From: Rubrivivax sp. | GTDB taxonomy: Bacteria > Pseudomonadota > Gammaproteobacteria > Burkholderiales > Burkholderiaceae_C | Direction: 5' to 3' | Length of the DNA: 64,000 bases | Assembly (NCBI GenBank): GCA_027484825.1 | Contig: JAIXSE010000016.1 | Coordinates: forward strand, 248,001-312,000 | Shown: piece by piece, positions 17,641-32,678 of the stretch | Layout: the number at the start of each line of letters is the position of its first letter | How positions within the stretch are numbered: position 1 is the stretch's first letter | The notes under the pieces: generated by a model | Databases searched by the model: none | What the model was told of the DNA's origin: nothing | Seen by the model: the letters and a program-made list of their open reading frames with translations, nothing else | Made by a program: the position numbers and the translations under genes

Positions 17641-17655
17641 ACGCAGGGAGAGCGA

Positions 17656-18885: not shown

Positions 18886-18935
18886 TTCGCTACAGTCGGC
18901 CTCATGCGCCTGGGACAGGGCTGCAGGGAGGATCT

Positions 18936-19346
18936 ATGGGGATTCGACTCAGGAAGAGCATCAAGCTGATGCCTGGCGTGAAGCTGAACATCAGCAAGAG
19001 CGGCATCAGCACGTCGTTGGGTGGCAAGGGCGCCACTGTGAACATCGGGAAGCGGGGTGTGCGCACGTCAGTGGGAGTTCCCGGCACGGGGATCGCGTTC
19101 ACATCGACGTCCAGCTCGCGCAGCCGCCAGCAGGCCCAGCGCGTGGCCAGCGCGGCTCAAGAGACGCCAGCGCTATCGGGTGAGGTGCCGGCCCGCCAAC
19201 TGACTGGATGGCTTTTCCTTGGCATTCTTCTCATGCCCTGGCTATTTGCTTGGCTCACTCTGCAGGAGGGTTACGGCAGAGGGGTGCGGTACCTCGCATT
19301 CGGGTGGCTGGCGATTTTGGTAATCGGCTACAGCGTGAAGAAATAG
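18936..19346 (+). CDS. DUF4236-family membrane protein
   Basis: The N-terminal 55 residues (MGIRLRKSIKLMPGVKLNIS, then SGISTSLGGKGATVNIGKRG) are the DUF4236 signature. A Ser-rich linker and two C-terminal membrane helices (about residues 91-108 and 116-132) follow. AGGGAGG precedes the ATG. It is 50 bases after int and convergent with the early operon. The function is unknown; position beside int suggests a lysogeny-expressed accessory gene. Confidence 0.75.
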   Translation: MGIRLRKSIKLMPGVKLNISKSGISTSLGGKGATVNIGKRGVRTSVGVPGTGIAFTSTSSSRSRQQAQRVASAAQETPALSGEVPARQLTGWLFLGILLMPWLFAWLTLQEGYGRGVRYLAFGWLAILVIGYSVKK

Positions 19347-19361
19347 CCCCGCCGAAGCGGG

Positions 19362-19916
19362 TCATTTGCAGTGCGGGCGCCTGCACCTAGATGCTCGTAG
19401 GCGGATCTCAGGCCTGGCGGCGATCTTCATGAACACCAGCCAGTGCGTCAGGCCCTTGCGGCCACTGACGTGACCGAACAGAGGTGGTTGCGGCACTAGA
19501 GCCAGTACCTCGCCGATCTTCACCTGCGTTTCGTTCCACTTGAACACAAGCGTCCCTCCCGGTTCCAGCACCCTCAGACACTCCGCAAACCCCTTGCGCA
19601 AGTCTTCGCGCCAGTCGTCGCTGAGCTTTCCGTACTTGGCTGCAAGCCACGACTTGGGGCCGGCTTTGACAAGATGTGGCGGATCAAACGCCACTAACTT
19701 GAATGAGGCATCCGGGAACGGCAGCGCGCGGAAGTCCATCAACGTATCCGGCGCAATCTGGATACTGCGCGTGCCGCTGGCGTTGCCGTGTGAGCGGTCC
19801 GTGACCGTGATGGTTTCTGCACGCCGGTCACCGAAGAGCACAACCGGATTGGCGCGATCGAACCACATCATCCGGCTACCGCAGCAGGGGTCTAGCACCG
19901 GTGGCAGGTCACTCAT
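19362..19916 (-). CDS. Phage class I SAM-dependent (DNA) methyltransferase
   Basis: The 184-residue protein begins MSDLPPVLDPCCGSRMMWFDR, with the catalytic motif IV as FDPPHLVK and LEPGGTLVFKWNETQVKIGEVL after it. DPP[YHF] is the motif of amino-methylating DNA methyltransferases, so the likely product is N6-methyladenine or N4-methylcytosine. I chose ATG 19916 because GGGAGG lies six bases upstream; it overlaps the preceding stop as TGATG. It is the last gene of the leftward operon. It may protect phage DNA; the target is unknown. Confidence 0.8.
   Translation of the reverse strand: MSDLPPVLDPCCGSRMMWFDRANPVVLFGDRRAETITVTDRSHGNASGTRSIQIAPDTLMDFRALPFPDASFKLVAFDPPHLVKAGPKSWLAAKYGKLSDDWREDLRKGFAECLRVLEPGGTLVFKWNETQVKIGEVLALVPQPPLFGHVSGRKGLTHWLVFMKIAARPEIRLRASRCRRPHCK
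19371..19386. repeat. Dispersed 16-bp palindrome copy 1
   Basis: GTGCGGGCGCCTGCAC, one mismatch to GTGCAGGCGCCTGCAC; it falls at the end of the methyltransferase gene. Confidence 0.8.
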
Positions 19917-20614
19917 CACTCGCCTCCCTTAGTGGAGCGGAGGGCGGCGTCAATGACCAGGCGGTGAACCTTGCCTGACGGCTCGACAATGTGAACCTCG
20001 CCCTCTGGCAAGTTGTCACGCAGCACCACCCGCATACCCAGGAAGCTGTCGCGCTCCTGCTCTTCCGTGAGCGCAGGGGCGGCGGTGCGGCTGGCGATTT
20101 CTGCGGCCTTCATCGCATTGATGCCGCCCGCCAGGATGTCCAAGAGCTGCGCGGCGTACTGGAGACGGTTACCCGCCTCAACGGACAAGGACACGGAGGG
20201 CGTTTCGTTGTAGAGACGCCCTGCAAACGAACGGCACTTCGCCGCGTGCCGCTTGGCCGCCGTGGCTTCCGGGATCAGGTCTTCCACCGGCTGTGCCGCC
20301 TGGGGTTGCGGGGTGGCAGGGCGCAGCGCCCACAGTCGCCGCTCAATGATCCCGGCAATCGGCTTGATGCGCTCATCATCAACGCCGCCGCCCAGATAGG
20401 CCACGACGACGCCCGCGACGTACTGCGCCCAGGTGCCGGGCTCTTCCTTCGCTTCGGCAGCGCGACGCGCCATGGCCTCCACGGACCCGTCGCAGTCATA
20501 GTCAGCGGGTGGGGACCACTCTGAGGGCTCCCGCGCGGGAGGGTCGTTCTCCGGGTCGTCCTGAGCTGCAGGGGTGAGCGTCTGACCCATGTAGTCCGCC
20601 CTATTCGCACTCAT
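19916..20614 (-). CDS. Hypothetical phage early protein
   Basis: A 232-residue acidic protein without a family I recognise. The N-terminus is Pro/Glu/Asp-rich; a middle helical part (EAMARRAAEAKEEPGTWAQY) and AKRHAAKCRSFAGRLYNETP follow. It overlaps both neighbours by a few bases, so it is translationally coupled in the early operon. No membrane segment or catalytic motif is visible. Confidence 0.7.
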   Translation of the reverse strand: MSANRADYMGQTLTPAAQDDPENDPPAREPSEWSPPADYDCDGSVEAMARRAAEAKEEPGTWAQYVAGVVVAYLGGGVDDERIKPIAGIIERRLWALRPATPQPQAAQPVEDLIPEATAAKRHAAKCRSFAGRLYNETPSVSLSVEAGNRLQYAAQLLDILAGGINAMKAAEIASRTAAPALTEEQERDSFLGMRVVLRDNLPEGEVHIVEPSGKVHRLVIDAALRSTKGGE

Positions 20615-20841
20615 TGTGGAGCTCCGGAATCCTGCGCACCAATGCTCAGCACCTGCTCAATGGGCCAAACGGTGGTCTTCTCACCGATCTTCCTACCCTC
20701 GGGCACTCGGCCCGCCTTCACCCACTTGTACCAAGTGGCGCGGTTGATGGGCAGCAAGCCGGGCTTGTTGTTCTTGGTGTCTCTGCAGATATCGGAGACG
20801 CGCAGCAGCGCTCCGGCGGGGTATTGCTTTTGGCCGGTCAC
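20611..20841 (-). CDS. AlpA/excisionase-like helix-turn-helix protein
   Basis: The GTG start at 20841 is preceded by AAGGAGG at ideal spacing and yields 76 residues. LLPINRATWYKWVKAGRVPE matches the winged-helix of AlpA/MerR-type excisionases and small regulators. It is probably an Xis or early regulator. It is in the leftward operon that runs toward int. A longer in-frame extension to 20916 overlaps the neighbour and lacks support. Confidence 0.7.
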   Translation of the reverse strand: MTGQKQYPAGALLRVSDICRDTKNNKPGLLPINRATWYKWVKAGRVPEGRKIGEKTTVWPIEQVLSIGAQDSGAPQ

Positions 20842-20957
20842 TTGTGGCCTCCTTCCTTGTCGATATTCAGGGGGCCGGCGATCCACCGGACAAGCTGGAG
20901 CATGGCTGCGCAGCATGCCGGGACGCCGGCGATGATCAGAACGGCGAGAGAGGTCAC
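20838..20957 (-). CDS. Small single-pass membrane protein
   Basis: A 39-residue frame from GTG 20957 reads MTSLAVLIIAGVPACCAAML then LVRWIAGPLNIDKEGGHK: one membrane helix and a short charged tail. It overlaps the upstream stop (GTGA at 20954-20957) and the downstream start, as its operon neighbours do, which is the main reason to call it. Function unknown. Confidence 0.55.
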   Translation of the reverse strand: MTSLAVLIIAGVPACCAAMLQLVRWIAGPLNIDKEGGHK

Positions 20958-21421
20958 GCCGCGGCCCTCCGCAGAAACGTAGGGTCCGAGACAGCTTTCA
21001 GCGCTGCGGCCTTCCTGTCGGCCCAAGCGCCCGCAAGCGCGAAGTTGGCCAAGTCAGTCTCCTTCGCCAGTTCGTCCATGACCTGAACGCCGTCCTTGGC
21101 GAGCTGGTAGTCGGGACCGGAGAACAACACGCGGCCTGTGTCCAAGAAGCGCTCGGTGACGCGGATCACCAGGTCGAACTGCTGCAGCATCTCCGGTACA
21201 CCGACGCGCAGCAGCTCTGCCACCTTCACCCAGGTGAGGGTGGTTTCAATCCAGTCCCAAAGGATCTGGCTGTTGGCTTGACCCTTGGCAATAGCGTCCA
21301 GCGTCTGCACATGCAGCAGGCCGAGCTTCACTCGGTCACGCTCGGTCATTCGCGGCCGGAGAGCCTTGGGCATACGCGCCAGCAGCTCTGTTGGCCCGAG
21401 CCGATGATGGCGTGGTTTCAT
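20954..21421 (-). CDS. Hypothetical phage early protein
   Basis: A 155-residue, mostly helical soluble protein (MKPRHHRLGPTELLARMPKA start). I recognise no family. The ATG overlaps the ParB stop by four bases. A function tied to replication or partition is possible from position only. Confidence 0.7.
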   Translation of the reverse strand: MKPRHHRLGPTELLARMPKALRPRMTERDRVKLGLLHVQTLDAIAKGQANSQILWDWIETTLTWVKVAELLRVGVPEMLQQFDLVIRVTERFLDTGRVLFSGPDYQLAKDGVQVMDELAKETDLANFALAGAWADRKAAALKAVSDPTFLRRAAA

Positions 21422-23160
21422 GCTTCCACCTCGGATGCCTGCTCGGTTGCAGCGTCGGCAGCGCCGGCGCTGCCCTCCTCATTCATGCCGGCGGAGCCGG
21501 CCTGTTCTTCTTCTACGAGGTCCGCCTGCACCGGTACCGGAGCGCTGGCTTTAGGCTTCGACTTGCGTTTTTTCGCGCCACCCTCCGGCGCTTGCGCAGC
21601 AGTGGAAGGGGTAGGAAGCGCTTCGGGATCCAGCGGGTTAATGCCATAGGACTTGGCCAGCAGGACGAGGGCGGGCGGTTGATCACGATAGTTGCAGCCG
21701 TACGGGGCATCGCACAGGGCGATCATGACGGCGAGGGCCCCAATTTCGTCTGCTGTCATCTGAGCGAGCTTGCCCGTCAGCCATTCGACGTCCTCGCCAT
21801 AGCCATCTAGGGCCGCAAGCTCCTCTTCCCAGCCCATGACTTCAGCGAGGGCTGCAGGGATCTCCGACAGCGCTTCCAGCATGTAGGCCAACACCAGCCG
21901 CAACTCGTCGGTTGAGCGGTCACGGTTGCGACACGCCTTGAGAACGTAGCGGAGGATCTCGCCCCAGTTCTGCCTGCAGGCTTCCTCTTCCTCCGTCAAC
22001 GGCAGGCTGGTGACTGTGTCGGTCGCTTCATCTTCCTGCTCGCGTTGGTGCGGCTCGGGAGCGATGCCGGCGGCGGTCAGCACGGCGTCCAAATCCTTGC
22101 GTGCGATGAAGCGAATCGGCTCGCCATCACCGGCGAGAGCCATCACGACGGGCGGGGCGGCTTCGCCCATTTGTGCAAGCGTCTTTTCGATGGTTGGGCC
22201 GCCGTCAGACACAGCCTTCTCCACGCACACATACTGCTCCTGATACTTCGTCGGCCAGTGGCGTGTGCGCATGGCTTCTGCGGCCTCTTCATCGGCGAGC
22301 ACCACGCCGCCTTGGGCCCGATGCAGATCAACCGCGGTCTCGAAGAGCCGCTTGTGCCTTGCGTCGAAGCAGTCGGTGTCAGTGCAGACGCCTGCACCAA
22401 ACAAATCAGTCAGGTCGGGGTCGTTGTCGCTGCAAAGAGCGCAACTGGTACAGGCGCGTCCATCATCGCTGAGCGTTGCGTCCGTCGTCATACCCTCAGA
22501 GGCGTCTTTCAGGGGGATGGTGAAGCTTGCGCCCTTCAGCGCGAGCTTCGCTGCGCGAGTGCTCTTCCATCCGATGGTTGCATGTTGGCCGTCCACCCAG
22601 CCCTTCTCACGCACCAGTTCCAGGGCCTTCTTCTGCATAGCCGCTGTAGGAATCCGGGCGATAGCTACGGCGATTTCAGCCGGCAATTCATCGGACTCAC
22701 AAGCGGAGCGGACTGCGTCACAGAGGTTCAGCAGCTTCAGGCGACCATAGATATAGCTCTTGCTCTTCCCCGAATCAGCAATGAGCTGCTCGGCTGTCAG
22801 CCCGTGGTCATCCATCAGGGCGCGGAAGCCTTCGGCCTCTTCCAATGCGGTCACATCGTCGCGGAGGAGGTTCTCGTGGATCTGCGCGACTTTGACGGCT
22901 TCATCGCTCATGTCTCGGATCACCGCCGGGATGCTGTCCAGGCCGGCCAGTTGCGCGGCACGGAAGCGACGGTGACCGAAAACGAGCTCCCATCCCGAAT
23001 AGCTGGGGACCGTCCGAGCAACCACAGGCGACATGACGCCCTGGCTCTTGATGCTCTCAGCGAGCTCCTGGAGCTTCACGGGATTGAAGTGCTTCCGTGG
23101 GTTGAATGGGCTCTCGCGTGTAGCTGCGAGCGACAGTTGAATGATCTTCTCGGTGGTCAT
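21418..23160 (-). CDS. Phage ParB/Spo0J-type DNA-binding protein
   Basis: The 580-residue protein opens with the ParB N-domain: PFNPRKHF, the nucleotide-binding motifs VFGHRRFRAAQLAGL (G-x-RR-x-R type) and IHENLLRDDVTALEEAEGF (E-N-x-x-R type), then a helix-turn-helix (LTAEQLIADSGKSKSYIYGRL). The intact motifs suggest a CTP-dependent clamp. The second half has a cysteine cluster (CTSCALCSDNDPD, CTDTDCFDARH) that may bind zinc, and a low-complexity tail. No ParA is nearby. The 16-bp palindromes dispersed over the prophage are candidates for its site. Confidence 0.88.
   Translation of the reverse strand: MTTEKIIQLSLAATRESPFNPRKHFNPVKLQELAESIKSQGVMSPVVARTVPSYSGWELVFGHRRFRAAQLAGLDSIPAVIRDMSDEAVKVAQIHENLLRDDVTALEEAEGFRALMDDHGLTAEQLIADSGKSKSYIYGRLKLLNLCDAVRSACESDELPAEIAVAIARIPTAAMQKKALELVREKGWVDGQHATIGWKSTRAAKLALKGASFTIPLKDASEGMTTDATLSDDGRACTSCALCSDNDPDLTDLFGAGVCTDTDCFDARHKRLFETAVDLHRAQGGVVLADEEAAEAMRTRHWPTKYQEQYVCVEKAVSDGGPTIEKTLAQMGEAAPPVVMALAGDGEPIRFIARKDLDAVLTAAGIAPEPHQREQEDEATDTVTSLPLTEEEEACRQNWGEILRYVLKACRNRDRSTDELRLVLAYMLEALSEIPAALAEVMGWEEELAALDGYGEDVEWLTGKLAQMTADEIGALAVMIALCDAPYGCNYRDQPPALVLLAKSYGINPLDPEALPTPSTAAQAPEGGAKKRKSKPKASAPVPVQADLVEEEQAGSAGMNEEGSAGAADAATEQASEVEA
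22382..22397. repeat. Dispersed 16-bp palindrome copy 2
   Basis: GTGCAGACGCCTGCAC, one mismatch; within the phage parB gene. Confidence 0.8.
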
Positions 23161-23615
23161 GCTTGAGCTCCAGGAACAGTGAAGAAACGGCGGTTGATGT
23201 GCTCGGGTGAAATGAACCCACCGCCCCCACTCGAGCTGGTGATGAAAGTGGTTCGGTGAGGTTTGGCGGGCGCGTCGCGGAAGGACTTCAGGCAGTTCTC
23301 GATGACGGCCGTGCGCAAGGAGTGGGCAGTCAGGTACTTGTGGCGAAGCGACAGGCTGATGAGTCCCATCGTGTCGCGGTCGGGCATCTGGCGGATCTCC
23401 AAATCCAAGTCCTCCACCAGGTCGGCGACGTTGAAGATGAAGGTGCCGGCGACGTCGTTTGCGATGGCCCGCAGAAAGCGTGATGGCTCCTGCAGTTCGT
23501 CGACCAGCACAAGATGCAGTTGCACCATGGTCCCGTCGCGAAGCGACAGGTCTTGGCTCGTGGAGAGGATCGAGTACCGATCCTTCTTGTACAGAACGTT
23601 GGGCTCATTCAGCAT
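23157..23615 (-). CDS. Hypothetical phage protein
   Basis: A 152-residue protein (MLNEPNVLYKKDRYSILSTS). The central part (VQLHLVLVDELQEPSRFLRAIAND) looks like an alternating beta/alpha fold. No family recognised. It overlaps the SSB-like gene upstream and parB downstream (ATGA), so it belongs to the recombination/partition part of the operon. Confidence 0.7.
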   Translation of the reverse strand: MLNEPNVLYKKDRYSILSTSQDLSLRDGTMVQLHLVLVDELQEPSRFLRAIANDVAGTFIFNVADLVEDLDLEIRQMPDRDTMGLISLSLRHKYLTAHSLRTAVIENCLKSFRDAPAKPHRTTFITSSSGGGGFISPEHINRRFFTVPGAQA

Positions 23616-23937
23616 GCTTAGGCTCCCTTGGGTCGTGGATGTTGGGAATCACGTCGGTGACGTTCTCCAGGCGGAGGACTGCGTTGCCGTGATCTGTTCG
23701 AGGTGAGAGGCCTTCGGCGTGAACCGTGACGGTCATGCCTCGGCGCAGAAGGCGCTGTTTGGCCTCGGCGGCGAAAAACCTGTTTGGGTCATCCCCGTAG
23801 TCCTGGACGCCAGTGAAGGGAAATCCCTTCGATGCGCCCAATTGGAAGAAGAGGAGAGCTCTCGGCTTTGGCCCCGGCGTGTAGCGGAGCTCTGCGTCGC
23901 TTCCAAGCTCGCCGGTGATCCTGATGGACGTGCTCAT
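23605..23937 (-). CDS. Single-stranded-DNA-binding-like (OB-fold) protein
   Basis: From the ATG at 23937 the product is 110 residues. MSTSIRITGELGSDAELRYT, then ALLFFQLGASKGFPF and RRGMTVTVHAEGLSPRTDHG, follow the strand order of phage SSB-like proteins, with GxLGxDAELR a strong hint. The longer frame upstream is discarded because the preceding gene occupies it. It probably coats single-stranded DNA during phage recombination or replication. Confidence 0.65.
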   Translation of the reverse strand: MSTSIRITGELGSDAELRYTPGPKPRALLFFQLGASKGFPFTGVQDYGDDPNRFFAAEAKQRLLRRGMTVTVHAEGLSPRTDHGNAVLRLENVTDVIPNIHDPREPKHAE

Positions 23938-24209
23938 GGGGCTTTCCCCTCCTCTGTGCTGACGACCAGCAGTGCGCCGTCCTTCGTCAGACCGATGCAG
24001 CGAGCGTCCGAAGTGCCGTCGTCGAGGTGTTGCTGCAGGTTGAAAAAATGGTCGCGCCACATGTCGGCGGCGCGGTCCGCGTCGGCGAGCTCTCGTTCAA
24101 CGAGCTCCAGTCGATTGCCTTGCTCGGCGACGACTTCACGGAGGTGTTGAAGCTCAAGGCGCTCCAGGCGACGCTTGATTCGTAGCGTGGCCGCGGTGTG
24201 CGTACGCAT
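23934..24209 (-). CDS. Coiled-coil phage protein
   Basis: A 91-residue protein whose first 65 residues form a long heptad helix (RLERLELQHLREVVAEQGNR and onward), ending in a short beta part (CIGLTKDGALLVVSTEE). GGAG stands seven bases before the ATG. Its stop overlaps the SSB-like start by ATGA. Function unknown. Confidence 0.65.
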   Translation of the reverse strand: MRTHTAATLRIKRRLERLELQHLREVVAEQGNRLELVERELADADRAADMWRDHFFNLQQHLDDGTSDARCIGLTKDGALLVVSTEEGKAP

Positions 24210-24212
24210 GGC

Positions 24213-24491
24213 CTAGCTCCGATGGGATTGCAGCTGGCGGAGTAGGCGGGTGCGCTCCTCACAGAGCTGCTGCAGAAGCCGTTGATCCTCCATGCGGCGC
24301 ATCTGCAGCGTCGGGCTCTTGAGATATCGCTCACGAAGCTCGGCCGCGCGGTTGTTGTCGAAATTGATGTGGGACAGCAACCGGTTGATCCGCTGCTGAT
24401 TCACCTTAAGGGCGGCCTCGATGCGACGCACATTGCGGCGGAGGTGCAGGCGCCTGTACAGCGCCATGGGCCATAGGGCTAGGAGAGTCAT
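24213..24491 (-). CDS. First gene of the leftward early operon, basic helical protein
   Basis: I chose ATG 24491 (GGAG six bases upstream) over TTG 24503. The 92-residue product has a hydrophobic N-terminus (MTLLALWPMALYRRLHLRRN) and a basic helical remainder rich in Arg, Leu and Gln. No family recognised. A phage operator pair and a putative promoter lie immediately upstream. Confidence 0.6.
   Translation of the reverse strand: MTLLALWPMALYRRLHLRRNVRRIEAALKVNQQRINRLLSHINFDNNRAAELRERYLKSPTLQMRRMEDQRLLQQLCEERTRLLRQLQSHRS
24444..24459. repeat. Dispersed 16-bp palindrome copy 3
   Basis: GTGCAGGCGCCTGTAC, one mismatch; near the start of the first early gene. Confidence 0.8.
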
Positions 24492-24520
24492 CGTGCGCTC
24501 CAATCGTTGACGACGGAGCG

Positions 24521-24560
24521 CAGATTAGCACGCTAATCTGCGTCTGTAAACGTGCTAATC
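24521..24560 (-). promoter_or_regulatory. Early leftward promoter with two repressor operators
   Basis: CAGATTAGCACGCTAATCTG (24521-24540) is a 9-bp perfect inverted repeat with a two-base centre. A second half-degenerate copy GTAAACGTGCTAAT is at 24547-24560. On the minus strand TTTACA (24545-24550) and TAATCT (24522-24527) stand 17 bases apart as -35 and -10, so binding would block the promoter. Confidence 0.75.
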
Positions 24561-24570
24561 GCTTTGGCGT

Positions 24571-24594
24571 AAAAAAACCCGCCGAAGCGGGTTT
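24571..24594 (-). terminator. Terminator of the LuxR/peptide transcript
   Basis: On the minus strand AAACCCGC-TTCG-GCGGGTTT is followed by a T run. It lies 20 bases beyond the peptide stop and isolates this two-gene unit from the early operon. Confidence 0.88.
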
Positions 24595-24613
24595 CAGGGG
24601 CAGCGCCAGAGGA

Positions 24614-24775
24614 TCAGTTGTCCGGCAGAGGGCCAGGGTTGGTGGGGCTGGTCGAGTCGGTGCGCACCACCTCAGTCTGTTCGCCACTGCTGCCGCCAGC
24701 GACGTTCTTCAGATCGTCAAGCGACAGCTCTTCGAGCTCTTCGACGCTCGTCTCGTTTTGCTTCGGGTTCTCCAT
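24614..24775 (-). CDS. 53-residue acidic peptide with double-glycine leader motif
   Basis: The ATG at 24775 is preceded by CGGAGG four bases away. The product (53 residues) contains LSLDDLKNVAGG at residues 17-28, an exact fit to the class II bacteriocin leader pattern LSxxELxxIxGG allowing Asp for Glu and Val for Ile. Cleavage after GG would release a 25-residue Ser/Thr/Pro-rich core without cysteine. It starts 24 bases after the LuxR-type gene and shares its terminator, so the two are co-transcribed. No C39-peptidase transporter is in the window. It could be a secreted peptide or an intracellular antirepressor; neither is shown. Confidence 0.75.
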   Translation of the reverse strand: MENPKQNETSVEELEELSLDDLKNVAGGSSGEQTEVVRTDSTSPTNPGPLPDN

Positions 24776-24799
24776 AAGACCTCCGTGTAACAAGGGAGG

Positions 24800-25510
24800 T
24801 CAGATAATACCCAAGCCCTTTGCACGGAAAGCAGCCGAAATAAAATTAGGGCAACCGAGAGTGCTGGTTGCGATACTCAGTATTGACTCAACCGCAGATT
24901 CACTGAGATGTAATGCTTTCGATATCTGTGCTGGGTCCTGGCCATTGGCAAGACGTCTAAGGGCATCAGTCTCGATTGGGGTCAATTCTTGACTCAACTC
25001 GCCCTCCGGGTCTGCCAGGTCGAACAGTGTCGCTGCGGGGACCATCGCGTATGCCGCTAGCATGCGGAAGTCGGGCAACAGGCGATCAAAGTTCGAGCGT
25101 GGGATCTCTTTATCCGTGTGTAGGGACAACTGCAGAAAGCGGCGTCGCGGCAGGTGAACGGACATGCTGATTCCAGATCGCAATCCAAAGCCGGAAAACG
25201 CGTCATAGATATCAGAGAGCTGCCGGTCTGCATACGTTCGATAGTCCCACACTGCCGGAGTCGAGTGGTATTTGCAGTGTTGCATCACCGGGCAGCGGCG
25301 CCCTAGGCCGAGCGGTGCGAGAGCGAGCCAATCATCAGACTGCGGCAGATTGTCGACGACGACTGTCCTGGGAGGCGCGTCTGCGCTTTGGATGAATGCG
25401 GTGGCGTCACACGTCCCAAAGCCCCACCTGTGGGAGAACGCTTCAAGCGGACGCAAGAACTCCTCAAGCGAAGAGGCTTCGGTGATGCTTGCCAGGTCGT
25501 CTTCGTTCAT
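24800..25510 (-). CDS. Phage LuxR-type transcription factor with autoinducer-binding domain
   Basis: The 236-residue protein has the two-domain layout of quorum-sensing receptors. The N-terminal autoinducer-binding domain keeps the conserved Trp in DDWLAL, Pro in RRCPVMQH, Trp in AVWDY and Gly in GFGLRSGISM. Two other canonical positions differ: the usual Asp before Pro is Cys, and the Tyr after the first Trp is Ala. The C-terminal LuxR helix-turn-helix begins LTPIETDALRRLANGQDPAQ and continues ISKALHLSESAVESILSI. No luxI homologue is in the window, so it is a solo receptor for a host or foreign signal. A lux-box palindrome and a phage operator are in its promoter. Confidence 0.88.
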   Translation of the reverse strand: MNEDDLASITEASSLEEFLRPLEAFSHRWGFGTCDATAFIQSADAPPRTVVVDNLPQSDDWLALAPLGLGRRCPVMQHCKYHSTPAVWDYRTYADRQLSDIYDAFSGFGLRSGISMSVHLPRRRFLQLSLHTDKEIPRSNFDRLLPDFRMLAAYAMVPAATLFDLADPEGELSQELTPIETDALRRLANGQDPAQISKALHLSESAVESILSIATSTLGCPNFISAAFRAKGLGII

Positions 25511-25550
25511 TTCGTTTCCATGTGCAACGGTCCCGGCGCATTCTGGCTCA

Positions 25551-25566
25551 CATTAGCACGCTAATG
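25551..25566. promoter_or_regulatory. Phage operator over the luxR-type promoter
   Basis: CATTAGCACGCTAATG is a 7-bp inverted repeat with the same core as the early operator at 24521. It covers the putative -10 (GCTAAT on the minus strand, 25552-25557), so the phage repressor should silence the receptor and peptide genes in the lysogen. Confidence 0.75.
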
Positions 25567-25571
25567 CAAGC

Positions 25572-25591
25572 ACCTGTAAAGCCTTACAGGT
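25572..25591. promoter_or_regulatory. lux box (LuxR binding site)
   Basis: ACCTGTAAAGCCTTACAGGT is a perfect 8-bp inverted repeat with a four-base centre. Its outer seven bases on each side are identical to the Vibrio fischeri lux box (ACCTGTA-N6-TACAGGT). It overlaps the putative -35 TTTACA (25575-25580, minus strand), which stands 17 bases from the -10. Because the box overlaps rather than precedes the -35, LuxR could activate or repress. Confidence 0.85.
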
Positions 25592-25674
25592 CACGGCACC
25601 CGGTGGAGGGTTGATTTCCCTGGTAAGTTGGCCCATAGTCGGGCGCTTCATGACGCGGTTAAAAGAATTTACAA

Positions 25675-25688
25675 ATAAGCACGCTAAC
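25675..25688. promoter_or_regulatory. Phage operator before the 120-residue rightward gene
   Basis: ATAAGCACGCTAAC matches the operator core ATTAGCACGCTAAT at 12 of 14 bases and lies 40 bases before the ATG at 25728. Confidence 0.5.
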
Positions 25689-25727
25689 CAGAAGGGGCCC
25701 AGCGAAGTGCTTGGGGGAGGCTTCTGG

Positions 25728-26090
25728 ATGCCGGTGCCAATGGACTGGAAGCAGGCTGCGCGTCTGCGCTTCCAGCACGTTGCGTCGATGCGCGGAGAGG
25801 CATTCACGACGCCTATGGGCCAGTTCAAGTCGGGCACCACGACGTGGGCGGCAATGAACTCGCAAGACGCGGTTCACCTCACGTGGGAATGGGTTGTATC
25901 GTCGGATGACGACTTGCGCATGGACCTGCGGGACCCGCTGGCCGTCCGATCAAACTTGCGCCTTTATGACAGCGGTCCCAATGGCACCGTGTACCTGGAC
26001 CGACTCCGCGCTTCAATCGTCATGACTCGAATCTTGGTGAGCATGGATTGGCAAGAAAGCGTGCTTCGTGCGCTGAGCGCAAACCGCTGA
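25728..26090 (+). CDS. Hypothetical 120-residue protein of the immunity region
   Basis: I chose ATG 25728 because GGGGGAGG lies seven bases upstream; the longer frame from TTG 25611 lacks spacing and would bury an operator in the coding part. The product (MPVPMDWKQAARLRFQHVAS) has no recognised domain; the C-terminal half (DRLRASIVMTRILVSMDWQE) looks helical. It runs right, divergent from the LuxR-type gene with the lux box between them, and converges on the repressor gene. An immunity or antirepressor role is only suggested by place. Confidence 0.6.
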   Translation: MPVPMDWKQAARLRFQHVASMRGEAFTTPMGQFKSGTTTWAAMNSQDAVHLTWEWVVSSDDDLRMDLRDPLAVRSNLRLYDSGPNGTVYLDRLRASIVMTRILVSMDWQESVLRALSANR

Positions 26091-26107
26091 ACTGACTCGG
26101 GAGAGTC

Positions 26108-26650
26108 TCAAGACTTGGGGCGAGCTGCGCCTGCTCCGCTGAACTGCTCGTCAACAGCTTCGACAAAACGAGTGAACTGATCACTCTTCGTCACGGCATC
26201 CACACCTGCTGCCATCTGCAGCGCAACGCCCCGCCATGCGGTAGTCGTGGTGGGTACCGGTCCGGTGCCTGGGTTCGTTGCAATAGCCCCCTCGATCATT
26301 GCCTCGATGCGTTGTCGGAGGTCTTGATCCAGCGACCACCAGAGCTCAGCGTCGATTCGCTCGAATGGCCATTCAGGCTGTTCCAGCTTCGGAGCTTCTT
26401 CGCCCTGAGCGTCTACGCGGTAACGCGGGCCCATGCCGCGTGCAAGCCATAGAGCTCTGAAGGGCGAGCCCTCAGCTATGCCCTCGGCGGCTTCCATCTT
26501 CCCAATGCTCTTTATTTCCTTGGAGCCGTTGCCTAGCCATTGCGATACCACGGACCGCGACTGGCCGGACCGCTGTACCAGGTCGGTCGGGCCTAGGTTC
26601 ATTTCTCGCATGAACAGTTCCAGCCGTTCCTTTAGGGACATGTTCTCCAT
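26108..26650 (-). CDS. CI-like phage repressor lacking a peptidase domain
   Basis: A 180-residue protein with an N-terminal XRE-type helix-turn-helix (LGPTDLVQRSGQSRSVVSQWL) and a C-terminal part of about 100 residues without the Ser/Lys motifs of S24 self-cleaving repressors. It is divergent from a Cro-like gene across an operator region, the classical immunity layout. Without self-cleavage, induction must come through another route, for example an antirepressor. ATG 26650 and ATG 26641 are both possible starts. Confidence 0.85.
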   Translation of the reverse strand: MENMSLKERLELFMREMNLGPTDLVQRSGQSRSVVSQWLGNGSKEIKSIGKMEAAEGIAEGSPFRALWLARGMGPRYRVDAQGEEAPKLEQPEWPFERIDAELWWSLDQDLRQRIEAMIEGAIATNPGTGPVPTTTTAWRGVALQMAAGVDAVTKSDQFTRFVEAVDEQFSGAGAARPKS

Positions 26651-26675
26651 GGACGCGAATTTAGCCTACTTAAAG

Positions 26676-26721
26676 TTAAACGTGCTCATCACAATGCGCA
26701 TGCTTACGTGAGCATGCTAAT
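26676..26721. promoter_or_regulatory. Repressor/Cro operator region with cro promoter
   Basis: Two operator-like sites are visible: TTAAACGTGCTCAT (26676-26689), resembling the site at 24547, and GTGAGCATGCTAAT (26708-26721, 11 of 14). A -10 TAATAT at 26718-26723 overlaps the second and predicts a start of transcription at about 26730, the A of the cro ATG. Confidence 0.65.
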
Positions 26722-26729
26722 ATGAATGC

Positions 26730-27032
26730 ATGAGTAACCCCCACGACACCGCCCAAACGGGTGGGGACGACGAGGACATTGTCGAGACGGTTGAGACGAA
26801 GGCTGAGGTGATTCGAGTGTTCGGATCACACAGCCAGGCGCACAAGGCGCTGGGGATTTCCCAGTCCGCGTTGTCTCAGTGGCCTGAAGTGCTCGGTCGT
26901 CACCACAAGAACGTCGTCCTCGCCGCCCTGTACCCGGTGCTTGTGCGTAAGTACCGGCGGTTGTGGGACCGATACCAGCTGCTGCAGGGCAGCGCAGCAG
27001 TGCGCAGTCCTTCAGACGACTCACGGAGTTAG
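26730..27032 (+). CDS. Cro-like helix-turn-helix regulator
   Basis: A 100-residue protein with VIRVFGSHSQAHKALGISQS then ALSQWPEVL, a Cro-type helix-turn-helix of the YdaS/Cro kind. The first 25 residues are acidic. It opens the rightward operon, divergent from the repressor. No ribosome site is visible before the ATG and the likely transcription start coincides with it, so the mRNA may be leaderless. Confidence 0.8.
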   Translation: MSNPHDTAQTGGDDEDIVETVETKAEVIRVFGSHSQAHKALGISQSALSQWPEVLGRHHKNVVLAALYPVLVRKYRRLWDRYQLLQGSAAVRSPSDDSRS

Positions 27033-27035
27033 ATC

Positions 27036-27359
27036 ATGCGACCAAAGGGAGACATCCGGCAGGCCGTAGAGAGCTGCATCCCGCTATCGGGACAAGGCGA
27101 CGCGGTCACCTGGAGGGACGTGGCTGCGCAGTTGCACAGCCGTAGGCTTGTGGACTGCAATGCTCCGTCCGAAGTTCGGATAGTTCGCCGAACCGTTGAA
27201 AACATGGCGACTGCGGGTGAGGTCCTGCGCGTTGGGAAACGTGCCGTGCCCGGTGCCCGCCGACAGATGACCACGTATGCCCGCCAATCGAGCTGGGCAA
27301 CAGCACCGTTCGGAAACGATTTGGGCGGCGTCATGCGCTCCTGGATCGCGTCAGTCTGA
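27036..27359 (+). CDS. Hypothetical phage protein, possible winged helix
   Basis: A 107-residue basic protein (MRPKGDIRQAVESCIPLSGQ); the segment VTWRDVAAQLHSRRLVDCNA then VRRTVENMATAGEVLRVGKR reads like a winged helix. It lies between cro and the replication gene, so a role in replication initiation or regulation is plausible but unproven. Confidence 0.65.
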   Translation: MRPKGDIRQAVESCIPLSGQGDAVTWRDVAAQLHSRRLVDCNAPSEVRIVRRTVENMATAGEVLRVGKRAVPGARRQMTTYARQSSWATAPFGNDLGGVMRSWIASV

Positions 27360-27415
27360 ATCACTAAGGGGAGTCGCATGCTGAGGAAAGATGGAATGCG
27401 CCGAGGAGCGCAGCG

Positions 27416-30085
27416 ATGAGTCTCGTCCCTATTGATTTCGTTCGCCTGAACGATGAGCTATTGCGCAACGTTGAGCATTACCTAGCGAAGTGGTTGCCGG
27501 CGGGGAAAGAGCGCAACGGCCGGTGGTACGTCGGGGACTTCGATGGAAGCCCGGGCAAGTCGGCGAACGTGAATATGGAGACGGGCCAGTGGGTTGACAA
27601 CGGGTCGGCAGACGACGTCGGCAAAGACCTTGTGAGCCTGTACGCACGCATCTTCAATATGAGCAACGGCCAAGCGGCGCTTGCGCTCATGGAGGAATTG
27701 GGCTGGAGTGACGCGTCCGGCAGCAACGCCCGCCGAGTGCAGGCGCCTGCACAGCGTGATCAGGTCAATCGCGCTGCGCCTGCGCCAGCCAAGGATGGGG
27801 CAGGTGCAGCGGATAAGCGCAAATCGAACTGGCAAGCAATTACTCCTGTGCCGCCTCATGCACCTGAGCCGGAATTCAGACATGGATACAGGGATTCCAC
27901 TAAGGGCGATGCTTGGGTGGAGCAGTGGCCCACCCGCACGTGGCGCTATGAGTTCGAGGGGCAGCTGTATGGATACGTTGCCCGCTTCGAGCGGGAGAAC
28001 AGCAAAGGGGAGATCGTCAAGGACACTTTGCCTCTGACGTGGTGCACCGATCTCTCAGATGGTCGAGGGCTTCAGCGGTGGCATTGGAAGATGTGGGAGG
28101 ACCCTCGTCCACTCTATGTTCCTGCGACTGTTCTCAGTCATGACGGCACGTTGCCGGTGGTTGTGGTCGAGGGCGAGAAGTGTGCCGAGGCAGGCTTCGA
28201 GCTCCTGGGGCATGAGTTCGATTTCGTGAGCTGGCCGGGCGGATGCAAGACCTGGTCGAAGGCGAATTGGGTGCCCTTGGCGGGGCGCACCGTATACCTC
28301 TGGCCAGATGCCGATGCACAACATGAGCGGCTGACCAAGAAAGAAAAAGACAACGGGGTTGATCCGAGCACCAAGCCGCTTCTGCCGCTCAACAAGCAGC
28401 CTGGCTACCTTGCCATGGCGGAGATCGGAACGCTCCTGCAGGCGAAGTACGGTTGCAAGGTCTACATCTGCCAGATTGGGAAACCCGGCGAGAAGCCGGC
28501 GGGTTGGGACATTGCCGACGCAATCGACCAGTTCAACTGGGGCCCCGACAAGGTCCGAGACTTCATTCGATCTGCGGCAGCGTTCGTCAGCCACCACGAT
28601 GAGGCACGGGCAAAAGTCGCTTCTACCCCATCCGACGCTGGCGCGGGCCCCGAGGGGGAGGTTGAGAGCTGGCGATCCAAGGTTTTCACGACTGGCTCGG
28701 GGGCGTACAAGGCGTGCCGGGAAAACATCGTGCTCGCGTGCGACGGCGTCCCGGAGCTCAGGATTCCAGGCGATGACCGCTTGAAGGGGGTGATTGCGTT
28801 CAATGAATTCACCAATGAGGTGATGAAGCTCAAGGAACCTCCCTGGGGCACGGAAGCCGGCCGCTGGCTGGAAGAGGATGAGCTTGAACTCGGCAACTGG
28901 CTTTCGCGAGAACTCTGGTTGCCGCCAATGCCACGCGGCACGCTTGAAGAGGCTGTGCTCATGGTATCGAAGCGCCACAAATACCATCCAGTGCGGCAGC
29001 AATTGGAGGGGTTGCGAGGGTCTTGGGACGGTGTTCCCCGCCTGGCAACGTGGCTGCGCCGCGTCTGCATGGAAGAGGATGAGTTCGACGATAACGATCC
29101 GCTGCAGCAATACCTCGCCCGTGTGGGGACATGGTTCGTCATGGCGATGTGCGCTCGCGTGCTGCCAGAGCTTAGGTTGGCGAACGGGGATCTGTACCAA
29201 GGCAAGGGCACCAAGTTCGATTACATGCTCGTGCTTGAGGGCGGGCAGGGCTGGGGGAAGTCGACCATCCCGAAGATCCTCGCGGGAGACGATTACTTTG
29301 CCGACACCGGTCTGATCCTGGGCGAAAAAGACAGCTATCAGAACATTCAGGGGATCTGGGTGTATGAGTGGGGCGAGCTGGACTCCATGGCCAAGGCCGA
29401 GGTCACCAAGGTGAAGCAGTTTGTTGCTTCGCCGAAGGACCGATTCCGGGCCACATTCGACCGAAGGCCGAAGGACTACCCGCGGCAAGTTGTGTTTGTC
29501 GGGACGACCAACGAAGACCACTACCTGACGGACCTGACGGGCAACCGTCGGTTTTGGCCTGTGCGTCTGGATGGGCCCGCAGACCTGAACTGGCTGAGAG
29601 CAAATCGGGATCAGATGCTGGCTGAAGCAATGGTGATGCTTGAGCGGAAAGACCGCTTCTTCCCCACAGCCTCCGAGCAGCGAAAGCTCTTTGATCCCCA
29701 GCAGAGCAAGCGGGTCGTCGAAAACTCGGTGGATCAGGCCATCCGGGCGTATCTCTATGACGAAAACCAGCGAGCTCCCATGAACGGGGTGAAGGGCACC
29801 GAGGTCACCAAGATCACTCTCAAGGAGTTGCTAGACCGAATCAACTATCCGCTGGACAAGCAGACGCCAGCAGTCGTCAAGCAGGCCAGCTCATCACTGG
29901 GCCGACTTGGCTGGTCGCCGGACGAGCGCCCCAGTGCGAAGGAATCTGGCGATCCCGCGCGTCCGCGCTACTACGTGCGCCCGAAACCATCAAGGCCGCA
30001 ACGGTCGGTTGGCGAAGACGCGATTCTTGAAACCCGCCCCGCGCAGGGCGATGAAGCTACGGAATATGAGCACATCCCGTTCTGA
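27416..30085 (+). CDS. Phage primase/helicase with Toprim-like and VapE-type ATPase domains
   Basis: The 889-residue protein has a Toprim-like region (VVVVEGEKCAEAGFELLG, then YLWPDADAQHE) in its first half. The second half is a virulence-associated-E P-loop ATPase: Walker A in LEGGQGWGKSTIPKIL, the Walker B region IWVYEWGELDSMAKAE and VVFVGTTNEDHYLTDLTGNR. This architecture is usual in the replication genes of temperate phages. GAGGAG precedes the ATG. A low-complexity linker (residues about 105-150) contains one perfect dispersed palindrome (VQAPA). Confidence 0.88.
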   Translation: MSLVPIDFVRLNDELLRNVEHYLAKWLPAGKERNGRWYVGDFDGSPGKSANVNMETGQWVDNGSADDVGKDLVSLYARIFNMSNGQAALALMEELGWSDASGSNARRVQAPAQRDQVNRAAPAPAKDGAGAADKRKSNWQAITPVPPHAPEPEFRHGYRDSTKGDAWVEQWPTRTWRYEFEGQLYGYVARFERENSKGEIVKDTLPLTWCTDLSDGRGLQRWHWKMWEDPRPLYVPATVLSHDGTLPVVVVEGEKCAEAGFELLGHEFDFVSWPGGCKTWSKANWVPLAGRTVYLWPDADAQHERLTKKEKDNGVDPSTKPLLPLNKQPGYLAMAEIGTLLQAKYGCKVYICQIGKPGEKPAGWDIADAIDQFNWGPDKVRDFIRSAAAFVSHHDEARAKVASTPSDAGAGPEGEVESWRSKVFTTGSGAYKACRENIVLACDGVPELRIPGDDRLKGVIAFNEFTNEVMKLKEPPWGTEAGRWLEEDELELGNWLSRELWLPPMPRGTLEEAVLMVSKRHKYHPVRQQLEGLRGSWDGVPRLATWLRRVCMEEDEFDDNDPLQQYLARVGTWFVMAMCARVLPELRLANGDLYQGKGTKFDYMLVLEGGQGWGKSTIPKILAGDDYFADTGLILGEKDSYQNIQGIWVYEWGELDSMAKAEVTKVKQFVASPKDRFRATFDRRPKDYPRQVVFVGTTNEDHYLTDLTGNRRFWPVRLDGPADLNWLRANRDQMLAEAMVMLERKDRFFPTASEQRKLFDPQQSKRVVENSVDQAIRAYLYDENQRAPMNGVKGTEVTKITLKELLDRINYPLDKQTPAVVKQASSSLGRLGWSPDERPSAKESGDPARPRYYVRPKPSRPQRSVGEDAILETRPAQGDEATEYEHIPF
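27737..27752. repeat. Dispersed 16-bp palindrome copy 4
   Basis: GTGCAGGCGCCTGCAC, perfect; in the linker of the primase/helicase gene. Confidence 0.9.
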
Positions 30086-30281
30086 CCAGCGATCGGTGCG
30101 CGCGCCGGAAAAGGTCACGGGCAGCCTCATCAGCATGCCTATGTAGTGAGCTTGCGACCAGGCGCGCCTGGCTGTCCGTCGTGTCCACGTGAATTTTGAG
30201 ATTCACCAGCTCTTTGCCGATGCAACTGCTGGTGATGTTGGCGGAGCCTTGCCCGAAATTCACGGTCCGGCTGTCCTTCAT
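30057..30281 (-). CDS. Possible antisense small protein in the gap after the primase/helicase
   Basis: The 283-base gap 30086-30368 has no rightward gene. On the minus strand an ATG at 30281 opens a 74-residue frame (MKDSRTVNFGQGSANITSSC start) with a balanced, protein-like composition. It overlaps the primase/helicase end by 29 bases. No ribosome site precedes it, and it opposes the operon, so it may be chance. Confidence 0.28.
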   Translation of the reverse strand: MKDSRTVNFGQGSANITSSCIGKELVNLKIHVDTTDSQARLVASSLHRHADEAARDLFRRAHRSLVRTGCAHIP

Positions 30282-30368
30282 AGACGTTGGGCGGGTGGGC
30301 GCAGGCACGTACAGACACGCGCGCCCAATGCGACTCACCTTCTCACGATTCATGGAAAGAAGGAGGAC

Positions 30369-30707
30369 ATGATGGACAGGAAGAAAAGCTGGGAATGGAT
30401 GAAAGAGCACATGCCGACTGTCGTCGCCATGTTGCGCGAGTACCGCGACCTTGGGGAAGGCGCCTTTGTGGATCGGTGCTGGCATAACGGGGTCGTGCTC
30501 GGACTGCCGAACTGGCTCTATGCCCGCGAGGGCGTGATCGCTGTTGGCGTCCCTTTCGACGGACCACGGCCTCCCATCCTCGGATCCATGGAGCAGTGCG
30601 AGCTCGCTAGGAGCGGCGTCCTGCTACAACTCGCCCCCCTTGGGTTTGACCTGGCTGAGAAGAAGCGCAACGCTCGCGCAACAGGAGGCATCAATGGCGC
30701 GCATTGA
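30369..30707 (+). CDS. Hypothetical phage protein
   Basis: AAGGAGGAC precedes the ATG at 30369. The 112-residue product (MMDRKKSWEWMKEHMPTVVA) has a helical N-terminus and a beta-like middle with Trp and Pro (GVVLGLPNWLYAREGVIAVG). It resembles small phage proteins preceding a Q-like gene. Its end overlaps the next start. Confidence 0.7.
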   Translation: MMDRKKSWEWMKEHMPTVVAMLREYRDLGEGAFVDRCWHNGVVLGLPNWLYAREGVIAVGVPFDGPRPPILGSMEQCELARSGVLLQLAPLGFDLAEKKRNARATGGINGAH

Positions 30708-31167
30708 AGACATTGAGCGCCGGCTGCTCAATTGGTCACGCTGGAAGCACGGTGCAGGCGCTCGGGGGCTTGGATATGCCCGCGTGAATCTCGCAATGGT
30801 GGTTGTGGACGGTGGGCAGGAGCGCGATTCGATCATCCCGACGGATGACTGTGAGGCACAGGACACCGATGCGGCCGTGATGACATTGCCTAGCGAACTC
30901 CGAGCAACCGTTGAGGTGTTCTACGTGCACGGCGGGACGATGGCGGCGAAGGCAAAGATTCTGTGCTGTACGGAGCCGACGATCCGGAACCGCATTGGCA
31001 AGGCCCACCCCATGATTCAGACGGCCCTTGCCGATCTAGCTGCGAAGCGCCGGGCGCGCCGGGCACTTGTCGAGGCAGGGCAGGCCAGCGCGAGGCCAAA
31101 GGGCTCCGTATCCGATGAGACCTTCGTGGATCAGATGAAGCGCATCCAGGCGCGGCGGGGGTTTTAA
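30694..31167 (+). CDS. Q-like antitermination protein
   Basis: AGGAGG lies before ATG 30694. The 157 residues begin MARIEDIERRLLNWSRWKHG, typical of phage late antiterminators, with a helix-turn-helix-like part (MAAKAKILCCTEPTIRNRIG). It lies just before a strong terminator and the late genes, as lambda Q does. It would load onto RNA polymerase to read through the terminator at 31247. Confidence 0.75.
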   Translation: MARIEDIERRLLNWSRWKHGAGARGLGYARVNLAMVVVDGGQERDSIIPTDDCEAQDTDAAVMTLPSELRATVEVFYVHGGTMAAKAKILCCTEPTIRNRIGKAHPMIQTALADLAAKRRARRALVEAGQASARPKGSVSDETFVDQMKRIQARRGF

Positions 31168-31246
31168 GGATTTTCGGCTTTCGGTACATTTCTGGCACGT
31201 TGAACGAACGCAAGCGCTTTTACTCCCTGAGCGCTGTCAACGCTTC

Positions 31247-31283
31247 GGGCCCGGCACTAACCATGTCGGGCCCCTTCTTTTTG
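31247..31283 (+). terminator. tR'-like terminator before the late genes
   Basis: GGGCCCG and CGGGCCC form a 7-bp stem with a 13-base loop, followed by CTTCTTTTT. It separates the Q-like gene from the late operon, the place where antitermination would act. Confidence 0.8.
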
Positions 31284-31291
31284 GGGTCGTC

Positions 31292-31885
31292 ATGGGCGTG
31301 AACATCAGCCTCAATACCAATGCGTCATCGGTGGCGATGGAACTCATGGCTGCGGCCCAGGACATGAAGACCACTGCAACCGTGCGCGCCCTTAACAAGA
31401 TGGGTCAGCAGGTCATTACTGCAATACCCAAAGGTATGCGGCAGGTTGGCTACAAGCTGAAAGCAGCGGACGTCAAGAAGGGGCTTCGTCTTCGTCGGGC
31501 CTCACCCAGCGAGCTTCGCGTAGTGATCACTGCGAGTGGACGACCTCTGCCGCTGATCAGGTATGGGGCACGGCAAACGCTCAAGGGCGTATCGGTCGAT
31601 GTGCTCAACGGGCGGAAGGTCATCGCGCACGCGTTCATATCCACCATGCCTAGTGGTCACCAGGGCGTCTTTGTCCGCGAGGACGGTGGGCGTCACAAGA
31701 AGGTGATGCGCGACGGTAAGGCGCGGTGGACTCAGCTTCCAATCAGGGAACTGTTCGGCCCTGCGATTCCTGATGGTGTGGCCAACGCCCAGGTGCAGGA
31801 GACGCTGGCTACCCTGGTGCAAGAGAAGTTCCCGGCTCTGCTCGAACACGAGAGCGCCTGGCTGGCGAGGTCGAAGGGTCGGTGA
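31292..31885 (+). CDS. Minor tail protein Z-like (tail completion)
   Basis: A 197-residue protein with the layout of prophage minor tail protein Z/GPZ: a helical start (TTATVRALNKMGQQVITAIP), a basic middle and IRELFGPAIPDGVANAQVQE near the end. It is unusually placed as first late gene, before the terminase. The ribosome site is weak. Confidence 0.65.
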   Translation: MGVNISLNTNASSVAMELMAAAQDMKTTATVRALNKMGQQVITAIPKGMRQVGYKLKAADVKKGLRLRRASPSELRVVITASGRPLPLIRYGARQTLKGVSVDVLNGRKVIAHAFISTMPSGHQGVFVREDGGRHKKVMRDGKARWTQLPIRELFGPAIPDGVANAQVQETLATLVQEKFPALLEHESAWLARSKGR

Positions 31886-31886
31886 G

Positions 31887-31902
31887 GTGCAGGCGCATGC
31901 AC
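31887..31902. repeat. Dispersed 16-bp palindrome copy 5
   Basis: GTGCAGGCGCATGCAC, one mismatch; intergenic, just after the tail-Z-like stop. Confidence 0.8.
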
Positions 31903-32316: not shown

Positions 32317-32329
32317 ACAGGAGGATTCG

Positions 32330-32677: not shown

Positions 32678-32678
32678 C

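Follow-up and report, generated by a model that had tools for sequence, protein, structure and literature searches.

A LuxR–RsaM–peptide cassette in the immunity region of a Rubrivivax prophage suggests the capture of a bacterial cell-to-cell signalling circuit

In a stretch of 64,000 nucleotides from the genome of Rubrivivax sp. (contig JAIXSE010000016.1, positions 248,001 to 312,000, hereafter referred to as the window), we have investigated a prophage that carries a gene for a LuxR-type regulator. An earlier note had described this gene, together with a downstream gene of 53 codons, as a quorum-sensing module of the phage. We find that both genes belong to a larger cassette, which also contains a divergently transcribed gene for an RsaM-like protein, and that the small gene encodes a peptide with a double-glycine (GG) leader. 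Judged by its sequence, the LuxR unit is tied to the immunity region of the phage (Table 1). With a confidence that is close to even, we propose that the cassette is a LuxR–RsaM–GG-peptide circuit of Sphaerotilaceae and related Burkholderiales, which was captured by the prophage and resides in its lysis-lysogeny control region. The remaining gene content of the element includes an integrase, a VapE-like replication protein, a gpA terminase and a portal protein of the lambda family.

The assignment of the larger gene to the LuxR family is borne out by its match to PF03472, which lies above the cut-off, and by whole-length fold matches, with the GerE domain scoring just below its threshold (E 8e-5, 22.6 bits, cut-off 23.5). 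The AlphaFold2 model of the protein (predicted local distance difference test score, pLDDT, 89.4) finds its best matches in the PDB, in Foldseek searches over the whole length, in QscR, RhlR, SdiA and LasR, and the protein combines the autoinducer-binding domain and the C-terminal helix-turn-helix (HTH) domain of LuxR-type autoinducer receptors. The small gene is equally confirmed as a reading frame with GGAGGT ahead of its start codon. Its ATG at 24775 is located on the same strand 24 nucleotides past the luxR stop codon and opens 53 codons plus a stop, with a terminator beyond, in support of a single transcription unit. As for this terminator, a hairpin of –14 kcal/mol is equalled in only 4 of 200 shuffles, whereas a simple scanner did not list 24571-24595. 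The encoded leader (...EELSLDDLKNVAGG) shows by reading the hydrophobic positions in front of the two glycines that characterize GG leaders (...ELSLDDLKNVAGG), and the predicted mature part encompasses 25 residues ending in NPGPLPDN.

The proposed unit of luxR and peptide gene thus stands but is incomplete without the divergent rsaM gene, whose ATG at 25728 behind GGGGGAGG had been overlooked. Its product matches PF16245, which defines the RsaM domain (PMC10710839), with an E-value of 1.9e-4 and 21.8 bits, a score that does not reach the Pfam gathering score of 25, and a sequence search of the PDB returned no RsaM match. An AlphaFold2 model built from 45 aligned sequences (pLDDT 93.5) found as sole PDB matches at E ≤ 0.001 the chains B (7.2e-6) and A (1.1e-5) of the RsaM homologue 4o2h, and the open reading frame (ORF) is predicted to adopt the RsaM fold. 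In line with the placement expected for rsaM beside luxR and/or luxI, the gene neighbours luxR, from which it is divergently oriented.

Both genes are separated by an intergenic region of 217 bp, which contains a lux box upstream of the luxR-peptide unit that is putatively activated by LuxR. Within the 64 kb, ACCTGT-N8-ACAGGT occurs in exact form only once, as ACCTGTAAAGCCTTACAGGT at 25572-25591, and a box of this strength was not obtained in any of 2000 shuffles of the region. Its previous description as a perfect palindrome is a slight overstatement, since the 8-bp arms are perfect but the 4-bp centre is not. The proposed –35 and –10 elements fit the sequence (TTTACA-17-GCTAAT), whereas a promoter scan made no call. 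The putative –10 element is covered by an operator-like repeat, TTAGCACGCTAA, of which, as noted before, copies also lie ahead of the early genes (exact, 24525) and of cro (two mismatches, 26709). A further copy with two mismatches is found at 24547 near the leftward early genes, and the rest of the 64 kb contains two sites with two mismatches, at 36097 and 41557. At up to three mismatches, the 28 copies found compare to a shuffle mean of 22.5 and are not above chance (18 of 100 shuffles contain as many). The case for a putative operator rests on the apparent clustering of exact and near-exact copies in the immunity region.

Table 1. Features of the prophage and of its control region (positions in the window).
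Feature	Position	Strand	Basis and remarks
Prophage	17469..56604	.	ends marked by a direct repeat of 23 bp, with copies at 17469 (3' end of icd) and 56582
53-residue GG-leader peptide gene	24614..24775	-	reading frame, upstream GGAGGT
luxR-type gene, 236 residues	24800..25510	-	PF03472, E 2.7e-15
RsaM-like gene (PF16245/DUF4902), 120 residues	25728..26090	+	divergent from luxR
lux box ACCTGTAAGGCTTTACAGGT (luxR-strand reading)	25572..25591	-	sole exact ACCTGT-N8-ACAGGT in 64 kb
Operator-like TTAGCACGCTAA (exact)	25553..25564	.	luxR promoter, over putative –10
Operator-like copy (one mismatch)	25676..25687	.	upstream of rsaM
Operator-like copy (exact)	24525..24536	.	ahead of leftward early genes
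Operator-like copy (two mismatches)	26709..26720	.	directly upstream of cro
Intrinsic terminator after peptide gene	24571..24595	-	hairpin plus T run, –14 kcal/mol
HTH phage repressor (CI-like), 180 residues	26108..26650	-	phrog_2328 transcriptional repressor, E 4.9e-5
Cro-like regulator	26730..27032	+	P22_Cro, PF14549, E 1.1e-7

A search with LuxR, as had been suggested previously, revealed luxR, rsaM and a peptide gene together in two other prophages. Among 399 genomes of the family, two copies of LuxR are much closer than all others and both reside in prophages, one of Pelomonas sp. BJYL3 (47% identity; loci L033 and L068) and the other of Mitsuaria sp. WAJ17 (42%; loci L034 and L069), latter also found as IMG/VR contig 2914166182 (L044). 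The RsaM of the window is 48% and 32% identical to the ORFs that are divergent from luxR in these prophages. The Pelomonas element is P2-like, with GPD, minor-tail and Ogr/Delta genes as neighbours. In 72 kb surrounding its cassette, the ORFs of the window prophage of at least 60 codons match at E 1e-4 only in cro, the repressor (55%), rsaM (49%) and luxR (47%), and a GG-leader peptide ORF follows luxR also in this case. The Mitsuaria prophage shares with the phage of the window the integrase (64%), the VapE protein (64%), the icd site and the early genes, with little in common between the structural halves in the 54 kb compared. Its Cro-position protein (L034 6100-6384, minus strand) belongs to the YdaS family (PF15943, E 1.5e-15), whereas its counterpart in the window is P22_Cro-like. 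In all three prophages, the luxR promoter contains a lux-box-like dyad upstream of a palindrome. The dyad of the Mitsuaria prophage contains one mismatch (2 of 2000 shuffles are as good), and the promoter palindrome of the Pelomonas prophage is one among several similar copies. The mature parts of the three peptides differ, yet the motif PGP[LF]P is found at equal distance from the end, with four invariant columns among the last eight, which was not reached in any of 200000 shuffles. A 7-bp inverted repeat (window 24778-24801), which starts at the luxR stop codon and spans the ribosome site ahead of the peptide ORF, would suit translational coupling. The corresponding hairpin was rejected as a feature of the cassette, as it is not significant against shuffles (z –1.3), not conserved in the Pelomonas prophage and folded differently in the Mitsuaria prophage.

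Chromosomal relatives of the cassette were collected in a scan of named genomes as the best 80 of 90 confirmed loci, mostly from Burkholderiales genera such as Roseateles, Rubrivivax, Rhizobacter and Ideonella. For feature counts we considered 79 loci, among them the phage loci L068 and L069, and left out L136, where no luxR ORF was obtained. The numbers are lower bounds, as the applied distance rules missed rsaM in cases such as L072 (identical to L007) and L070 (identical to L006). A divergent RsaM-like gene is present in at least 69 of the 79 loci and a CTGT-N8-ACAG box after luxR in at least 67. At least 56 contain an HlyD gene and at least 56 an ATP-binding cassette (ABC) exporter of the C39 type (PCAT), with the HlyD and Peptidase_C39/ABC domains checked with Pfam on L040 only. 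Excluding two loci that end too soon, a GG-leader ORF with the terminal pattern of P, two to four residues and W is encoded in 58 of 77 stretches downstream of luxR. None was seen when the same 77 stretches were read on the other strand, nor in any of 637 random stretches. Some of these peptides carry tandem terminal units (four copies of DPSPKGTW or five of GPNGGW). None of 8 of these peptides tested against NCBIfam and of 7 against Pfam reached the curated cut-offs. The described features define a system that recurs on chromosomes of Sphaerotilaceae and relatives (e.g. L040, L042, L043, L065, L066, L113 and many of L072-L147). To our knowledge, no description of a chromosomal system combining luxR, rsaM, a lux box, a GG peptide and an exporter exists.

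In a phylogenetic tree of 82 LuxR sequences, the three phage proteins form a single clade (100/100), with a second chromosomal locus, present in two genomes of the same genus, as sister group (L070 5992-6702 and L071 5995-6705; 100/99), although the depth of this placement is unsure due to long branches. This second luxR/GG-peptide locus, where rsaM is present and no exporter was found, encodes the closest relatives of the phage LuxRs, and its peptide in L071 ends with PGPLPGW. The phage cassette may stem from this locus, or the locus may be a relic of the cassette. The host genome (5.66 Mb) harbours its own luxR with a divergent rsaM-like gene, a box and a GG peptide with two PKGTW units, and this chromosomal LuxR pairs in the tree with that of Roseateles depolymerans, which points to a Roseateles as the probable host. 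Elsewhere in the host, unlinked to this locus, there are two full-length relatives of the exporter found at L040, with 52% and 47% identity. Directly before the latter C39-type ABC exporter, we observe three consecutive small GG-leader ORFs (L062 4223-4933), whose mature parts start with PQ[IV]xNDG and whose leaders resemble by eye that of the phage peptide (ELSL...).

From the observed genes, homologies, lux box and repeats, the arrangement in three prophages and the exporter-linked kin, we infer how binding, regulation, export and their outcome might be connected. In the lysogen, the repressor would occupy operators in both divergent promoters and thus keep the cassette off. Once repression lapses upon infection or induction, luxR-peptide and rsaM would be transcribed, with LuxR regulating itself through its lux box and being damped by RsaM. 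The peptide would be cut after the GG motif and exported through a C39 exporter of the host, to serve as density signal or to interfere with the related peptide system of the host. We read the peptide as a candidate secretion substrate, used for signalling or interference, rather than as an antirepressor, because of its conserved C-terminus on a GG leader, the C39-linked kin and the preservation of its motif despite diverged repressors. Such a role would show parallels to the arbitrium system of Bacillus phages, where a phage-coded small peptide is encoded near the lysogeny switch. The peptide of the window is likewise phage-coded and placed near such a switch, whereas the genes are different, with LuxR and RsaM, a GG leader and a Gram-negative host, and with release and sensing both putative. 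A fully arbitrium-like scheme, where a LuxR responding to a ligand other than an acyl-homoserine lactone (AHL), an RsaM brake and a C39-exported GG peptide report phage density, and which descends from a bacterial LuxR/RsaM/PxxxW circuit, is rather unlikely in our estimate. The ancestral circuit may in turn be a peptide pheromone system, as yet undescribed, of Sphaerotilaceae and relatives.

The nature of the LuxR ligand has a bearing on these proposals. In the earlier note, a host AHL had been considered as ligand, an assumption that is weakened by our results. A search for luxI (PF00765) found no match in the host genome, which is 95% complete and in which no LuxI/LuxR pair was thus detected, while the same search was positive in 10 of 120 genomes of the family. 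Additionally, the phage proteins do not retain the full set of residues described for the AHL pocket of TraR (W57, Y61, D70, P71, W85 and G113; PMC10134790). The position of D70 is in all three cases occupied by Cys. Among the 82 rows of the tree, it contains Asp in 77 and Cys in all phage copies as well as the chromosomal L121, counts that are biased by the pattern used to find the loci, which demands [DC]PV[MQ]QHC. A single Thr in this column stems from the row with the longest branch (L006b), a wrong-frame translation that should be disregarded. Since L121 is an exporter-linked locus of Roseateles koreensis, the Cys is not restricted to phages. The positions of W57 and Y61 read D/S/S and A/S/A in the window, Pelomonas and Mitsuaria proteins and are thus never aromatic, although the alignment is loose in this region and a Trp is located one or two residues away. 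The loss of W57 is not specific to phages either, because most chromosomal rows carry Tyr or Phe at this place. Conversely, P71, W85 and G113 are retained, as are residues of the HTH domain, where E180, L184 and G190, which are invariant in an alignment of nine rows, correspond by position and not by structure to E178, L182 and G188 of TraR. A canonical AHL is thus disfavoured by the missing luxI match and the altered pocket, although AHLs from neighbouring cells may serve as ligand. A precedent for a different ligand is provided by solos of the PipR/OryR type, of which PipR is a LuxR homologue responding to a tripeptide instead of AHLs. These are associated with peptidases and an ABC importer, and the passages describing them contain no GG peptide, RsaM or phage (PMC4981722).

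The closest working likeness to the cassette, by analogy, is found in the XRE-LuxR-smORF modules of the Aeromonas phages Apop and ARM81ld, with C4-homoserine lactone as ligand (PMC10432266, PMC6456758), where a small ORF (smORF) of 156 nucleotides under control of LuxR inactivates the cI repressor (PMC10432266). Common to both are a LuxR encoded by the phage and a small ORF of about 50 codons in a lysis-lysogeny control unit. A module of this Silpe/Bassler type would let AHL from neighbours acting through LuxR raise the level of a small protein, and intracellular inactivation of the repressor by this protein would cause lysis. The peptide of the window is of similar size and also encoded near a repressor, and its promoter combines a lux box with an operator-like repeat. 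We still regard this mechanism as unlikely and the role of the peptide as antirepressor-type trigger of lysis, which had been proposed before, as weakened, in light of the GG leader and the exporter-linked kin, the missing luxI match and loss of D70, and a C-terminal motif that stays constant while the repressors differ, with 55% identity in the Pelomonas prophage and 27% over 126 residues in the Mitsuaria prophage, where the repressor adjoins the rsaM-luxR-peptide cassette. As the Mitsuaria repressor is a diverged relative and not an unrelated protein, the peptides may share a target, which makes this argument against an antirepressor weaker. The organization also differs, as the Aeromonas modules contain an XRE partner and a counter-oriented smORF, whereas in the window the partner is RsaM, the peptide gene is co-directional and downstream of luxR and the ligand pocket is altered. 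On grounds of sequence, the cassette thus appears as a variant of phage LuxR modules, and we do not place it in the class of smORF antirepressors, whose defining activity is the inactivation of a repressor.

The phage proteins might also engage in cross-talk with the host, by LuxR and RsaM acting inside the cell on the host circuit through competition for boxes, mixed dimers or anti-activation, or by the host LuxR reading the phage box, which would let the phage eavesdrop on this circuit. The presence of a host luxR, a divergent rsaM-like gene and a GG peptide with a lux box offers targets for such interactions, and RsaM was termed a dominant regulator of AHL quorum sensing (PMC10710839). Scored against a matrix of 67 chromosomal boxes, the box of the phage reaches 17.8 and the runner-up in the 64 kb 13.5, although the former falls just below the lowest of the chromosomal boxes (18.7). 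A second matrix match at 54077 was rejected, as it lies where a tail-region ORF begins and does not contain CTGT. Since cross-talk would leave the retention of the peptide gene beside the phage luxR in all three prophages unexplained, we consider it quite unlikely.

The peptide could also be a bacteriocin-like weapon or an exclusion peptide released from infected cells. C39 exporters often export bacteriocins, and the matches of the window peptide to GG-leader families, all of them below the cut-offs, include leaders of type-A lantibiotics and of CCRG-2 ribosomally synthesized and post-translationally modified peptides. By contrast, inspection by eye revealed neither a modification enzyme nor an immunity gene between the genes of the cassette, conservation is seen in the short C-terminal end, and the tandem repeats of some kin resemble a repeated signal unit. 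A weapon is thus very unlikely in our estimate.

Several observations weigh against a captured circuit with an exported peptide. No cognate C39 exporter is linked to the phage peptide gene, and the contig range of the window contains no relative of the exporter at E 1e-30. There is also none beside the host luxR, because only 0.7 kb separate this gene from mnmG. The phage peptides end in N or M and their chromosomal kin in W, and the DNA-binding helix of the phage LuxR has diverged. In the Pelomonas prophage, the dyad is weak, with three mismatches (56 of 2000 shuffles are as good), whereas in the Mitsuaria prophage the palindrome has no second copy in the cassette region, even with one mismatch allowed, and its status as operator is a guess. 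Finally, the cassette was found in only three prophages. Among 399 genomes of the order, of which at most seven candidates per genome were scored, two match at E 1e-40, the genome of the window itself and a chromosomal locus, and viral contigs queried with rsaM returned only the Mitsuaria phage again. This restricted occurrence and the terminator of the cassette would be expected for cargo (moron) genes with no role in the lysis-lysogeny decision, which we deem most improbable, since the cassette is shared along with cro and repressor by phages that do not match elsewhere and contains operator-like repeats in both promoters.

Other searches were similarly restricted in their outcome. Among 16 genomes of the genus, we recognised no additional copy of the phage type; the 15 other genomes contain one match each (E 4e-50 to 6e-39), presumably the chromosomal locus. 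There was no match in viral contigs with an alignment of the repressor or one of 26 LuxR rows, in plasmids with LuxR at E 1e-8, in phage records with RsaM at E 0.1, or in named-genome and viral contigs with the single LuxR sequence of the window, with alignments generally working better as queries. Matches of LuxR to two phage records (24%), named Acinetobacter phage MD-2021a, were not regarded as evidence for a phage gene, as the inspected region (L151; CAKLQH020000009.1, 102367-111065) looks chromosomal and contains lasI, sdiA and fatty-acid genes.

Two further observations concern the surroundings of the prophage. Directly right of its attR site, an integrase-like ORF of 198 residues (window 56744-57340) with 59% identity to a prophage integrase over 160 residues is probably the remnant of a second element at the same site. 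Outside the prophage, an imperfect direct repeat of 88 nucleotides (80%) is found at 61084-61171 and 63821-63908.

With respect to known systems, the cassette resembles the xre-luxR-luxI modules of Phaeobacter prophages in placing a phage luxR into the lysis-lysogeny switch of unrelated prophages, although latter carry luxI and make AHL (PMC13345283), and RsaM does not occur in the text of this source. The divergent orientation of rsaM and luxR corresponds to the type 6 topology, as described for luxR solos in Pelomonas, Kinneretia, Albitalea, Thauera and Xenophilus. The account of this type in section 4 of the respective study contains no GG peptide or exporter, and the term 'Phage' does not appear in its text (PMC10710839). 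In searches of open-licence PMC papers, we did not recognise a description of a phage RsaM, or of a GG peptide linked to LuxR and RsaM.

Whereas phage LuxR receptors were already known, a phage switch cassette that combines them with RsaM and a peptide of the secretion type did not surface in these searches. The described arrangement suggests that a virus has captured a cell-to-cell signalling circuit, whose bacterial relatives adjoin peptide exporters. If the peptide is indeed exported and sensed, Gram-negative phages would gain a peptide-based density system besides those using AHLs. The chromosomal combination of LuxR, RsaM, lux box, exporter and a GG peptide with a P-x-x-x-W-like end, frequently in repeated form, is in turn a candidate for peptide signalling in Gram-negative bacteria, which would supply these luxR solos with a concrete output.

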